From: Treponema sp.
GTDB taxonomy: Bacteria; Spirochaetota; Spirochaetia; Treponematales; Treponemataceae
Direction: 5' to 3'
Assembly (NCBI GenBank): GCA_016288205.1
Contig: JAEEYO010000025.1
Coordinates: 124,001 to 188,000, forward strand
DNA length: 64,000 nt
The notes under the pieces: generated by a model
What the model was told of the DNA's origin: nothing
Database searches by the model: none
The model's input: the letters and a program-made list of their open reading frames with translations, nothing else
Program-made: the position numbers and the translations under genes
In this document: in pieces, positions 33,780-40,346 of the stretch
Numbering within the stretch: the stretch's first letter is position 1
How the letters are laid out: the number at the start of each line of letters is the position of its first letter

Positions 33780-33795
33780 TTTGAGGGGGGTGCGA

Positions 33796-33914
33796 GTGGA
33801 AAGTTGAAAGTGGAAAGTTGAAAGTGGAAAGTTGAAAGTGGAAAGTTGAAAGTTGAAAGTTGAAAGTGGAAAGTGGAAAGTGGAAAGTGGAAAGTGGAAA
33901 GTGGAAAGTGGAAA
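33796..33914. repeat. 17 tandem heptamers (GTGGAAA/GTTGAAA)
   Basis: Seventeen uninterrupted 7-base units over 119 bases: alternating GTGGAAA and GTTGAAA for units 1-8, two further GTTGAAA, then seven GTGGAAA. It is noncoding on the gene map and lies directly upstream of the perfect phosphatase promoter. Copy number of such tracts changes readily by slipped-strand mispairing. Confidence 0.95.
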
Positions 33915-34018
33915 GTGCTTTTTTTGTGATGAACGGAATTTGCGAAAATGTGTAAATTTACAACGGAAAAGTAAACGCAGGCAGAATTCTGCTTGTTTTA
34001 AGAAGCCTCGTAACGCAA

Positions 34019-34447: not shown

Positions 34448-37387
34448 ATGGATGTCCTAGAAACTGAAAAACTGTTAAAAAGCCTTCGAACAGGATTTAT
34501 TTCACGACAGATTTCCTCAGATAATTACCTTATGCCTACGCTCTTAGTAAATGATTATCATAAAAGCAAAAAAATCCTTTCAGCGCTTACAGAAGAACTT
34601 TCAACTTGTGAAGCCTTCGATTTTTCGGTTGCCTTTATAAATGATACAGGGCTTGCTTCAATTCTTCAAAAACTAGAATATCTTGCAGAAAAAAATATTA
34701 AAGGAAGAATACTTACAACAAATTATCTAAATTTTACTTCACCAGGGGCGTTATCTAAGTTACTAGAATTTCCAAATATCGAAGTCCGTGCATACACAAA
34801 AGGTGGATTTCATCCGAAAGGATATATTTTTAAACAAAGCAATTATTATTCCATTATCGTTGGCAGCGCGAATTTAACCGCAAGTGCATTAAGTCAAAAT
34901 CAGGAATGGAGCATAAAGTTTCTTTCATTGACAGACGGACAAATAGTTTTTTCGGTCCGAGACGAATTCGAACGCGTCTGGAAAGAGGCAGAAACTGTAA
35001 CATCAGAATGGATTACTGACTATACGATAGACTACAATCTAAAAAAAGTTGCGCTAAAATCTCTTCCGAAGGATGCCATAAAAGAACTCCAAGCGGATCA
35101 TGCAATAGAAGAAAATCTCAAATTATCTGATGAAAATAACGAATTGGAAATAGTCCCGAACTCAATGCAAAAAGAAGCAATGGCTTCCCTTGAAGAGTTG
35201 CGGAGTAAAGATGAAACCAGAGCTCTTTTGATTGCTGCTACAGGAACTGGAAAAACTTATCTTTCTATTTTTGATGTTCAGCAAGTCAATCCTCATCGAG
35301 TTCTTTATATTGCTCATCGCGATATGATTCTTAACAAATGCGAAAAAAGTTTCAAAACTTTGCTACCAAACATTCAGACAGGATTCTTAAATGGCACACA
35401 AAAAGATTTCAATGCGGATTATTTATTTGCATCAATTTTCACGCTTGCCAAGGATGAAACATTAAAAACATTCCGAAAAGATCATTTTGATTATATTATC
35501 GTAGATGAGGTTCATCATGCCGGGGCTGAAAGTTATAAAAAGGTAATAGAATACTTTGAACCAAAATTCTTACTTGGTCTTACAGCAACACCAGAACGCA
35601 CCGATGGATTTGATATTTTTGCTTTGTTTCACAATAATATTCCATATGAAATAAGGTTACAAAAGGCTTTGGAAGAAGATTTGCTTTGCCCCTTCCATTA
35701 TTATGGATTAAGTGATTTAACAATAAACAATGAAATAATAGATGATAAAAGTGATTTTTCAAAGCTAGTAAGCACAGAACGAATCAGACATATTGAACAT
35801 GCAATAAAACTATACAAAAGTAATGATGAACTTGTAAAGGGACTCATCTTTTGCAGTAGAATTGAAGAAGCAAAGGAATTGAGCAACTTTTTGAATAAAG
35901 ACGGTTTTGTTACAACATATCTTACCGGTGAAAATTCCGATTCCGAACGCGAGCGAGTAATTCAAAAGCTGGAGAGCGATGATGATCCTCTTCAATATAT
36001 AATCAGTGTGGATATCTTTAATGAAGGAGTTGATATTCCATGCGTAAATCAAGTTGTTATGCTTCGTCCAACACAATCTGCAATTATTTTTGTCCAGCAA
36101 CTTGGAAGAGGTCTACGAAAAGATAAGGGAAAATCTTTTGTAAGTGTAATAGATTTTATTGGAAATTATGAAAACAATTTCTTTATCCCGATTGCTCTAT
36201 TCGGAGATAATTCATATAACAAAGATAATCTACGACGGGCTCTTTCAACAGGTTCAGCATGCATTCCTGGTTCTTCAACAATTCAAATAAATGAAATTGC
36301 AAAGCAAAAGATATTTGATTCAATAAATCAAACCTCATTTTCTCAACTTAAACTCCTAAAAGAAGAATATACAAAACTAAAATTCCGTCTTGCACATATT
36401 CCAACAATGATAGAATTTGTTGAAAATGGATTCATCGATCCGCTTTTATTTATTGATTATGCTGGAAGTTATTACGCCTTTAAATGCAAAGTTGAAAAAC
36501 AAGATACATTACTATCACCAAAGGAACTATGCTCACTACAGTTTATTTCACTTGAATTTGCTCACGGCTTTAGAATTCATGAACTTCTTTTATTGAAGAT
36601 GCTCTTAAACAAAGACCATATTTCATATTCAGACTTTTCAGAAACATTGAAAACATACAGTGTCCCATTAAATGAAAAGGACGTAGATGGTATATGCCGC
36701 TTACTTTCACCAGAATTCTACACTCAAGCTGACAAGAAAAAGTATGGCGGAATAACTTATGTTACTTTTGATAAAACCAATAAAATATTTGTTCGTACCA
36801 AAGAATTTGCTGATTTAATAAAGAATAAATCATACGTTGATGAATTAAATGACTGCTTATGTTATGGGATAAAAAAAGCTAGTTTGAAAGAAAACGAAAT
36901 AAAAACAGAAAATAATCTTGTTTTATATCGAAAATACTCTCGTAAAGATGTTTGTAAATTATTGAACTGGAAAAGTGACTGCTCTTCAACAGTATATGGT
37001 TATAAAACAGAAACATCCACACCAGAATACACATGCCCAATCTTTGTAACTTATAAAAAATCAGATGATATTTCTGACTCAATAAAATACGAGGATGTGT
37101 TTATTGACAATACACGTTTTAACTGGTATTCAAGAAGCCGCAGAACATCAGAATCTGACGAAGTTTCCGCATTAATTCATCAGCAGGATAACAATATTAG
37201 AATCATGTTATTTGTAAAAAAAGATGATGCGGAGGGATCGGATTTTTATTTTATGGGTGACATGAAATTTGAATCTTTTGAAGATACAACTATGAATTCT
37301 GATAAAGGACAGGTTCCTGTCGTAAACATAAAGTTTGATATGAAAACACCTGTTCCCCAAAATCTTTATGCATATTTGGAAGGTTAA
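34448..37387 (+). CDS. PLD-nuclease/superfamily 2 helicase with DUF3427-like C-terminus
   Basis: A 979-residue protein. N-terminal PLD-like nuclease domain with FHPKGYIF (His122, Lys124) and GSANLTASAL; helicase Walker A ATGTGKT (~264-270), DEVHH (353), LTATPERTDG, then the second RecA domain with FNEGVDIP and QQLGRGLRKDKGK. The last ~400 residues are a DUF3427-like region. This architecture is shared with restriction-like and defence-associated helicases; the substrate is not known. Strongly AT-rich compared with neighbours, suggesting transfer. A NUDIX gene starts one base after its stop. Confidence 0.88.
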   Translation: MDVLETEKLLKSLRTGFISRQISSDNYLMPTLLVNDYHKSKKILSALTEELSTCEAFDFSVAFINDTGLASILQKLEYLAEKNIKGRILTTNYLNFTSPGALSKLLEFPNIEVRAYTKGGFHPKGYIFKQSNYYSIIVGSANLTASALSQNQEWSIKFLSLTDGQIVFSVRDEFERVWKEAETVTSEWITDYTIDYNLKKVALKSLPKDAIKELQADHAIEENLKLSDENNELEIVPNSMQKEAMASLEELRSKDETRALLIAATGTGKTYLSIFDVQQVNPHRVLYIAHRDMILNKCEKSFKTLLPNIQTGFLNGTQKDFNADYLFASIFTLAKDETLKTFRKDHFDYIIVDEVHHAGAESYKKVIEYFEPKFLLGLTATPERTDGFDIFALFHNNIPYEIRLQKALEEDLLCPFHYYGLSDLTINNEIIDDKSDFSKLVSTERIRHIEHAIKLYKSNDELVKGLIFCSRIEEAKELSNFLNKDGFVTTYLTGENSDSERERVIQKLESDDDPLQYIISVDIFNEGVDIPCVNQVVMLRPTQSAIIFVQQLGRGLRKDKGKSFVSVIDFIGNYENNFFIPIALFGDNSYNKDNLRRALSTGSACIPGSSTIQINEIAKQKIFDSINQTSFSQLKLLKEEYTKLKFRLAHIPTMIEFVENGFIDPLLFIDYAGSYYAFKCKVEKQDTLLSPKELCSLQFISLEFAHGFRIHELLLLKMLLNKDHISYSDFSETLKTYSVPLNEKDVDGICRLLSPEFYTQADKKKYGGITYVTFDKTNKIFVRTKEFADLIKNKSYVDELNDCLCYGIKKASLKENEIKTENNLVLYRKYSRKDVCKLLNWKSDCSSTVYGYKTETSTPEYTCPIFVTYKKSDDISDSIKYEDVFIDNTRFNWYSRSRRTSESDEVSALIHQQDNNIRIMLFVKKDDAEGSDFYFMGDMKFESFEDTTMNSDKGQVPVVNIKFDMKTPVPQNLYAYLEG

Positions 37388-37388
37388 A

Positions 37389-37790
37389 ATGAAAAATGTA
37401 AATGTTGTTGCTGCTATTATTATAAGGACAGATGAAAATTCTAAAAAGAATGTTTTTGCAACTCAACGCGGATACGGAGACTTCAAAGACGGATGGGAAT
37501 TCCCTGGAGGAAAAATCGAAGAAGGCGAATCCCCAGAATCAGCTCTTGCTCGTGAAATAAAAGAAGAACTGGCAACAGAAATACAGGTTGGAGAATATAT
37601 TGACACAATTGAATATGATTATCCAAAGTTTCATCTTTCAATGCGTTGTTATGCATGTACAATTCTGAGTGGAAAACTTGAGCTTCTAGAACATGAAAAT
37701 GCAAAATGGTTGACAAAGGAAACTCTAAATTCCGTAGATTGGCTTCCTGCAGATATTTTAATTCTAGATAAAGTAAAGAATCTTTTATAG
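37389..37790 (+). CDS. NUDIX hydrolase, MutT-like
   Basis: A 134-residue protein starting one base after the helicase stop. The Nudix box GX5EX7REUXEEXXU is complete (GKIEEGESPESALAREIKEE). N-terminal VVAAIIIR and a C-terminal WLTKETL...VDWLPAD resemble (d)NTP pyrophosphohydrolases that clean oxidised nucleotides. Close coupling to the PLD-helicase suggests a joint system in which it acts on a nucleotide product or signal; that is inference. Confidence 0.88.
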   Translation: MKNVNVVAAIIIRTDENSKKNVFATQRGYGDFKDGWEFPGGKIEEGESPESALAREIKEELATEIQVGEYIDTIEYDYPKFHLSMRCYACTILSGKLELLEHENAKWLTKETLNSVDWLPADILILDKVKNLL

Positions 37791-38467: not shown

Positions 38468-38860
38468 ATGTACACACCACCCTTTGCCATCAGTGCAAGA
38501 GCAATCAACCTTATCTCAGAAATCTCCGCAAACTTGGAGCGTTTTGCCATTCGAATGGAGATGGAAGACGGAATCATGATGCGCAAAATGAACCGCATGA
38601 AGACAATTCACGGCACACTTGCAATTGAGGGCAACACTCTGAGCGAAGAACAGGTAACGGCTCTGCACGAGTTTGAATTTATTCACCCATTTATGGACGG
38701 CAACGGACGCATGGGGCGATTCTGGCAGTCAAGGCTTTTGGCTGAATGGAATCCAGTTTTTGCCCATCTCCCCATTGAAAACATGATTTGGGAGAATCAG
38801 AGAGCACATAAAGTCAGATGGAGGAAATATTATGGCAAACGGAATCGAAGACTTGCATGA
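38468..38860 (+). pseudogene. Fic-family protein with internal deletion
   Basis: The 130-codon frame begins with a canonical Fic-family N-terminus (SARAINLISEISANLER; IKTI-type IHGTLAIEGNTLSEEQVTAL with the inhibitory-helix-like motif), then jumps straight to FEFIHPFMDGNGRMGR, the catalytic Fic motif. In full-length relatives ~110 residues lie between. After LPIENMIWENQ the family similarity ends too. Frame is kept, so a short product is possible, but it lacks most of the fold. AMPylation activity is doubtful. The gap 38252-38467 shows no gene. Confidence 0.65.
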
Positions 38861-39029
38861 GAAAAACAAGGAAGAGCAAAGTGATGACAAATCTGCTTCC
38901 ACACATTATAATGAGTGGAGGGTTTTCCAGGGGCGCGAGGATGCGGAGATGCTTCGGGAAAAATCTTTGGGCTGGTCAAGCAAAAAGGATTATTTAGGGG
39001 ACTACGATGACAACGAACGCGACTATTAG
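38832..39029 (+). CDS. Small acidic protein of unknown function
   Basis: A 65-residue hydrophilic protein (MANGIEDLHEKNKEEQ..., ending DYLGDYDDNERDY). The start has a good GGAGGAAAT site. It overlaps the Fic remnant by 29 bases and the DUF1294 gene by 23. No family recognised; may be the antitoxin or C-terminal partner of the broken Fic locus, but nothing in the sequence proves that. Confidence 0.45.
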   Translation: MANGIEDLHEKNKEEQSDDKSASTHYNEWRVFQGREDAEMLREKSLGWSSKKDYLGDYDDNERDY

Positions 39030-39285
39030 AAACACAGTTTTTGTATACCTGCTGATTATGAACATCATCGGGTTTATTCTCATGGGGATTGACAAGCACA
39101 AGGCGAAAAACAAAGGCTGGAGGACACCTGAAAAGGCCCTGTTCCTGGCAAGTCTCATCGGAGGAAGTCTCGGCACGTGGCTCGGGATGTATGTTTTCAG
39201 GCACAAGACGAAGCACTGGTATTTCGTAATTTTCATGCCGCTGATTCTTATACTCCACATCGTGCTGCTCGCTTTGTTTCTTTAG
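39007..39285 (+). CDS. DUF1294-family small membrane protein
   Basis: A 92-residue protein with the DUF1294 pattern: an N-terminal membrane segment (VFVYLLIMNIIGFILMGID), a basic K-HKAKNKGWRTPEKAL motif, an IGGSLGTWLGMYVFRHKTKH segment and a second C-terminal membrane helix. Function of the family is not known. Weak ribosome site; overlaps the preceding small gene by 23 bases. Confidence 0.85.
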   Translation: MTTNATIRNTVFVYLLIMNIIGFILMGIDKHKAKNKGWRTPEKALFLASLIGGSLGTWLGMYVFRHKTKHWYFVIFMPLILILHIVLLALFL

Positions 39286-39314: not shown

Positions 39315-40346
39315 ATGAAACCACCGTCCAACCCAACCTCGACCTACGCCGTCACCCTGTATTTTGACCCGGACTCAACTACCCTGATTCGCTCGGCCAT
39401 ATCGCACTTGGCGGAGATTTGCGGAAATGATTACATGATTCAAAATGAAGTGCCGCCGCATCTGACATTGGGAATGTTTCATGCAAGCGACGCGAACTTG
39501 GAAAAGCTGGAGAATCTGTTCCGTGATTTTTCAAAAAAAGCAGGCAGGACTTTCCCGGTGGATTTTTCCGGCGCGGATTCTTTTATGGACAAGGTGATTT
39601 TTCTTTCATTGAAAAAGGACTCTCCGACTTTCACTTTTCTCAAGGATTTGAACTCAAGTCTGCACGAAATGTTCATACCGCATTTTGAAGCCGGAGACAA
39701 CAGGAATTATCTTCCGCAGAATTGGGTTCCGCACATTGCCCTTGCTGTAAAGCTTTCGCACTCGCAATTTGAAAAAGGCTTCTCCTTGTTTGAAAAATCG
39801 ATTCTGCCGCAATCAGCAAAAGTCATCTCTCTCGGTCTTGCGCGCTGCAATCCTTACAAGGAAATTCTTCGCATATCACTTTCCACCGACAGCTTGAGCG
39901 CAGAGCAAAGGCACAAAAACATGGCTGCAATTCACAGCTCGGACACAAAGCCGGAAAAGAAAATCCGCTCCGCACTCTTTAAGTTCGGTCTCCGCTTCCG
40001 AAAAAACGACCGCCGCTATCCCGGCACTCCAGATTTAGTCTTTCCGCACTACCATGCCGTCGTGTTCATAAACGGATGCTTTTGGCACGGACACGAAAGC
40101 TGCTCCAGATTCAGGATTCCAAAATCCAACGTTGGGTTCTGGGAAAACAAGATTGAGCGCAACAAAAAAAGGGATTCCGAAAACATCAAAAAATATCAGG
40201 ACATGAGCTGGAGAGTCTGCGTTGTGTGGGAATGCGCAATCAGCGGAAAAAAATCAAGGCAGAAGATAAAGAACGTAACGGAAAAAATCTGCCTGTGGCT
40301 TGAAGAATGTGAGTCAGTGTTTTTGGAGATCCGCGGATATGATTGA
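39315..40346 (+). CDS. 2H phosphoesterase fused to Vsr mismatch endonuclease
   Basis: A 343-residue protein from the ATG at 39315 (after CGGAGG); the longer in-frame start overlaps DUF1294 and lacks a site. Residues ~1-190 are a 2H/LigT-like domain with VPPHLTLG (His49, Thr51) and VPHIALAV (His140; Ala instead of Ser/Thr). Residues ~193-343 are a complete Vsr domain: LSAEQRHKNMAAI, RYPGTPDLVF (catalytic Asp240), NGCFWHGHESC and WRVCVVWEC. Vsr nicks 5' of T:G mismatches formed by methylcytosine deamination. No cytosine methylase gene lies nearby. The fusion is unusual; its RNA- or cyclic-phosphate substrate is unknown. Confidence 0.87.
   Translation: MKPPSNPTSTYAVTLYFDPDSTTLIRSAISHLAEICGNDYMIQNEVPPHLTLGMFHASDANLEKLENLFRDFSKKAGRTFPVDFSGADSFMDKVIFLSLKKDSPTFTFLKDLNSSLHEMFIPHFEAGDNRNYLPQNWVPHIALAVKLSHSQFEKGFSLFEKSILPQSAKVISLGLARCNPYKEILRISLSTDSLSAEQRHKNMAAIHSSDTKPEKKIRSALFKFGLRFRKNDRRYPGTPDLVFPHYHAVVFINGCFWHGHESCSRFRIPKSNVGFWENKIERNKKRDSENIKKYQDMSWRVCVVWECAISGKKSRQKIKNVTEKICLWLEECESVFLEIRGYD

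Follow-up and report, generated by a model that had tools for sequence, protein, structure and literature searches.

In a genome of Treponema sp., a single gene joins a 2H phosphoesterase domain to a complete Vsr endonuclease. I propose that its product is an active T:G nickase that carries a cyclic-phosphodiesterase-like 2H domain and belongs to a group of genes centred on 5-methylcytosine restriction, a reading to which I would give about an even chance of being correct. Both domains are of known kinds, but as far as the searches show, there is no earlier description of the two being combined, of how widely the fusion occurs or of a connection between this 2H family and 5-methylcytosine (m5C) restriction islands; the preliminary description of this DNA likewise knew of no such combination, and in a literature search restricted to papers outside subscription, no paper with both a 2H phosphoesterase and Vsr was found. 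The gene lies in what is called here the window, the whole 64-kb stretch of DNA that was analysed (G000:C32:124001-188000), in which the following features are relevant:

34448-37387, forward strand: SauUSI-like type IV restriction enzyme, 979 amino acids (PADLOC PDLC03658 mREase_IV, E 1.4e-230, residues 10-977; Pfam)
37392-37790, forward strand: NUDIX hydrolase, PADLOC phage-defence candidate PDC-S07 (PDLC04899, E 7e-48)
38468-38860, forward strand: Fic gene, 130 amino acids, probable remnant (PF02661; homologues 360-371 amino acids)
39007-39285, forward strand: DUF1294 membrane protein gene, 30 bases upstream of the fusion (PF06961, E 1.5e-27)
39315-40346, forward strand: 2H-Vsr fusion gene, 343 amino acids (open reading frame, domain matches, relatives, model)
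39315-39884, forward strand: 2H phosphoesterase domain, residues 1-190 (PF13563, fold match, both histidine motifs)
39885-40343, forward strand: Vsr endonuclease domain, residues 191-343 (TIGR00632, alignment to 1cw0, fold match)

The open reading frame of the fusion is uninterrupted (ATG at 39315, stop at 40344-40346, 343 codons) and is preceded by a GGAGG ribosome-binding site. Profile searches place the Pfam domain PF13563 (2_5_RNA_ligase2) at residues 44-176 (E 9e-9, above the cut-off), the Pfam domain PF03852 (Vsr) at residues 191-261 (E 1e-29, 102.7 against a cut-off of 27) and the NCBIfam model TIGR00632 (Vsr) at residues 191-308 (E 9e-42, 142 bits against a cut-off of 97.85). The 2H domain is N-terminal and the complete Vsr domain C-terminal, without a long linker, and the short join begins at the native N-terminus of Vsr. 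The His-x-Thr/His-x-Ala pair of the preliminary description is present as H49-L-T51 and H140-I-A142, and the catalytic aspartate that it assigned to a complete Vsr domain is D240. Its 'HGC-like' Vsr motif is also there (NGCFWHGH), but reads N-G-C, N253 standing where E. coli has H64, and this holds for each of the 27 aligned Vsr sequences. No RNA families were found in the 33-42 kb part of the window.

A sequencing frameshift confined to this genome had been named as one way in which the fusion might prove spurious. This explanation, and that of an assembly artefact, can be ruled out, as the fusion has an open frame, with the same domain order, in 18 of 196 Treponema genomes; two further fusions (G052, L125; G047, L245) are cut off where their contigs end, directly behind the join or within Vsr. 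The other concern, a 2H catalytic pair that has lost its function, is not borne out either, since the aligned fusions retain both histidines. Purifying selection acts on both domains: between the window and its closest relative, G005, the 2H half has a dN/dS of 0.17 and the Vsr half one of 0.11, and for three other pairs the value for the whole protein is 0.14-0.21.

The 2H family is nearly restricted to Treponema among 296 Spirochaetota genomes, and it is present in 86 of the 196 Treponema genomes. Each of the 19 fusion genomes searched has the fused copy as its sole strong 2H of this family (two segments given for G125 belong to a single gene, and the window's genome, G000, has one weak additional match, E 7e-5); were separate copies as frequent as in the other genomes, approximately 7 of these 19 would be expected to have one. 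A fusion with Vsr first was not found in any genome, and a search of genome contigs yielded no fusion outside Treponema among the 80 loci listed. In IMG/VR, the relatives among the 70 loci listed are Vsr-only, and one apparent full-length match (L181) proved to be a separate Vsr reading frame beside a methylase. A phage origin is rejected, as the 4.5-kb region has no match in phage records. Among plasmids, one record covers most of the query, with Vsr and 2H as separate genes.

The folds of both halves are predicted from an AlphaFold2 model of the fusion (59 aligned relatives as input; mean pLDDT 94.1, pTM 0.72). The modelled Vsr half matches E. coli Vsr (1cw0) with a Z score of 20.2 and 39% identity over 150 residues, and the other half has Z scores of 14-19 to many 2H structures, among them the plant cyclic phosphodiesterase 1jh6 (19.0), YjcG (2d4g, 17.2) and LigT (approximately 15). 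A pTM of 0.72 despite a pLDDT of 94 suggests that the two halves have no fixed orientation. In the work on 1cw0, the N-terminus of E. coli Vsr is reportedly positioned on the DNA at the site of the mismatch, and as the join is made at this very terminus, the 2H domain would sit near the nicked site.

Aligned to 1cw0, the window protein has the catalytic residues E214, D240 and H258 and the zinc ligands C255, H260, C263 and C307, of which D240 and H258 correspond to E. coli D51 and H69, and the four ligands to C66, H71, C73 and C117. Also present are M203, F256, W257 and W276, the counterparts of the E. coli residues that intercalate at the mismatch. The catalytic, zinc and mismatch-contact residues are invariant across seven aligned fusions. 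The fusion has the same fold, catalytic Asp/His/Glu, zinc ligands and mismatch residues as the very short patch repair endonuclease of E. coli (1cw0, 1vsr), but it carries a 190-residue N-terminal 2H domain where that enzyme has a short arm, and its gene has no adjoining dcm gene. From these residues the Vsr half is predicted to be a T:G mismatch nickase; it would cut 5' of the T, and its sites would most likely be T:G pairs that result from the deamination of 5-methylcytosine.

The 2H half has its fold and its two histidine motifs in common with the plant cyclic phosphodiesterase of Appr>p (1jh6, 1fsi), YjcG (2d4g) and LigT/ThpR, but identity to these is 12-20%, the second motif is HxA and not HxS/T, and a nuclease is attached. 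Stand-alone relatives within the family measure approximately 190-230 amino acids. Both histidines are kept in the fused and unfused members aligned (with one X in G078); the first motif is HxT, and the second is HxT in G161, G061 and a distant clade and HxA in most, fused and unfused alike, so that the alanine, standing where Ser or Thr is the rule, is a trait of the family and not of the fusion. With its predicted cyclic-phosphodiesterase-like fold, this Treponema 2H may act on a 2',3'-cyclic, 1'',2''-cyclic or 2'-5' phosphodiester, or at least bind such nucleic acid. In one locus a NUDIX domain of the PDC-S07 type is fused ahead of the 2H domain (L111:7613-8641, 343 amino acids), and in another the 2H domain is fused to a GNAT acetyltransferase domain, with a barstar-like gene adjoining (L113:6209-7381, 391 amino acids); the 2H domain may thus join any neighbour. 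A two-domain Barstar-GNAT gene stands beside 2H in several Treponema loci (L114:3106-3834, L002:5090-5863).

The absence of a nearby cytosine methylase, from which the preliminary description concluded that the target may not be the classical T:G mismatch, is confirmed: there is none in the 64-kb window, and the local profile found none within 5 kb of any fusion, on contigs some of which are short. The fusion therefore lacks linkage to a cytosine-5 methylase gene, the usual though not a defining companion of Vsr. The conclusion does not follow, as the four mismatch-contact residues are conserved and the genome does have one m5C methylase, whose gene adjoins an HNH_2 gene on contig C71. A methylase is not always present in the assembly, since G078, G107, G115 and G143 are not among the genomes with an m5C methylase, all four assemblies being less than 90% complete. 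Moreover, VsrA of Caulobacter is functionally linked to a cytosine methylase that does not adjoin it, and deletion of this methylase leads to a Vsr-dependent DNA-damage response (PMC12907096). A missing linked methylase does not, then, exclude membership of Vsr; VsrA resembles the fusion in having no methylase as its neighbour, but has no described 2H domain (PMC12907096).

In the window, the NUDIX gene starts 5 bases past the SauUSI-like gene and lies approximately 1.5 kb upstream of the fusion. Enzymes of the SauUSI-like class cut DNA carrying m5C or hm5C (PMC3874153). The Fic gene retains the HPF-GNGR motif, much of its length apparently having been lost, and intact Fic genes are present in other 2H loci (L120, L128). 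The DUF1294 gene recurs next to the fusion of G005 (L002) and next to an unfused 2H of G009 (L114). As G005 does not have the restriction-NUDIX block at its fusion locus, the fusion is not tied to this neighbour. A small protein starting MANGIEDLHEKN is encoded at 38832-39029 of the window and again at L234:13058-13318, which is contig C62 of the same genome, directly after a PDC-S07 NUDIX. A tandem array of the 7-base unit AGTGGAA (17.6 copies, 33795-33917) lies shortly before the SauUSI-like operon, and another of 7.3 copies is found on contig C71 (L144:548-598), approximately 7 kb from the only m5C methylase of the genome.

Of 42 2H loci, 12 (5 of the 18 with a fused and 7 of the 24 with an unfused 2H) have a PDC-S07 NUDIX gene no more than about 1.3 kb from the 2H gene, and in approximately 8 loci of stand-alone Treponema Vsr such a gene is at most 350 bases from Vsr. 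With some 140 strong matches (E < 1e-37) in the 196 genomes, or roughly one per 2.7-Mb genome, about 0.1% of genes would be expected to have one that close, although several of the NUDIX-2H loci come from related genomes, which leaves fewer independent cases. An LlaJI endonuclease, an AAA ATPase and cytosine methylases lie ahead of 2H in L114, L134 and T. saccharophilum, and other methylases are found at 2H loci L115, L128, L129 and L136; LlaJI, AAA, Fic and NUDIX precede the fusion in L120, and SauUSI, NUDIX and Vsr are consecutive in L114. A single chromosomal site beside NUDIX-2H, with identical flanks, holds differing restriction systems in six related genomes (L111, L112, L129, L134, L136, L137), so that part of the link between 2H and restriction is one hotspot. 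Plasmid pTS1 of T. saccharophilum carries a homologous pair in one neighbourhood (Vsr WP_002703408.1, 2H WP_002703404.1) behind an LlaJI restriction-modification operon, in the order two m5C methyltransferases, AAA ATPase, LlaJI endonuclease, Vsr and 2H; in contrast to the fusion, these are two genes, approximately 340 bp apart, with Vsr first. The 2H gene thus appears to be a resident of defence islands, together with a NUDIX hydrolase and restriction systems that make or cut m5C, where Vsr would be its companion.

In a Vsr tree of 57 rows, the window and G005 cluster with ordinary stand-alone Treponema Vsr. The remaining 16 fused Vsr fall together in a second group, within which some stand-alone relatives are nested. 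Forcing the window pair into this second group is worse by 49 log-likelihood units (p-AU 0.0058), and with more stand-alone Vsr added, the Vsr data reject a single origin of all fusions. As a similar grouping constraint on a sparser Vsr sample gave p 0.126, and as the groups for the AU test were named after a tree had been seen, the double origin is supported but not proven. The 2H tree is mostly without resolution and too poor to decide the number of origins. The fusion probably arose twice, to judge from the Vsr sequences, although two fusions, or one fusion with a later swap of the Vsr half, would both be compatible with the Vsr tree. Two members of one gene set would have been joined, probably on two occasions, and this, together with the unfused nearby pair in T. 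saccharophilum, points to a working relation between them. As a consequence of the fusion the halves are made together, and they may act at the same DNA site.

Alternatively, the fusion may serve co-expression only, the loss of a stop codon or a deletion having joined a 2H gene beside a restriction hotspot to a neighbouring vsr, with no cross-talk between the products. I consider this possible, if clearly the less probable course: the fusions of 2H to NUDIX and to GNAT, the short join at the native Vsr N-terminus and the model, which suggests no fixed orientation, all agree with it, but the same order of 2H then Vsr recurs in approximately 20 genomes, with probably two origins and no Vsr-first fusion found, and a single case each of a fusion to NUDIX and to GNAT was observed. 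A coupled enzyme in the strict sense, in which the 2H domain directs or controls the T:G nickase after convergent double fusion, within an m5C restriction set (type IV or LlaJI enzyme, NUDIX PDC-S07, 2H, Vsr) where 2H proteins were previously unrecognised, can be advanced only tentatively and is rather unlikely.

It is improbable that the protein is a gated nickase, a defence effector and not a repair enzyme, in which the 2H half would bind or destroy a cyclic or 2'-5' nucleotide signal and so switch an otherwise harmful Vsr. Acb1 and the 2-5A phosphodiesterases have the same fold as the 2H half, the setting is a defence island with a SauUSI-like enzyme, a PDC-S07 NUDIX and Fic, and Vsr is able to cause DNA damage (PMC12907096). 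However, no nucleotide cyclase was recognised among the annotated neighbours, the 2H family is a host chromosomal gene that is often unfused, and no known case of a nuclease switched by a 2H domain was found. The cut of E. coli Vsr leaves a 5'-phosphate and a 3'-OH and no cyclic phosphate, so that the healing of nuclease-made ends by the 2H half, as envisaged in the preliminary description, is unlikely. Hardly credible, finally, is a repair role in which the 2H half opens 2',3'-cyclic phosphates at nicks near the Vsr site, for example at ribonucleotides in DNA, for even though 2H enzymes open such phosphates (PMC5283653) and the nearest folds are cyclic phosphodiesterases, Vsr's own cut needs no such healing and the neighbourhood holds no pointer to ribonucleotide repair.

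The nickase with its appended 2H domain, among genes centred on 5-methylcytosine restriction, is the reading that I prefer. Vsr is a textbook repair enzyme, which is kept here apart from its methylase and adjoining a type IV enzyme of the m5C-attacking class. Many bacterial 2H proteins are not known to have a role. A conserved, single-copy and probably convergent fusion connects one such orphan 2H family with both mismatch repair and the restriction of 5-methylcytosine, and allows its role to be tested with one purified protein.
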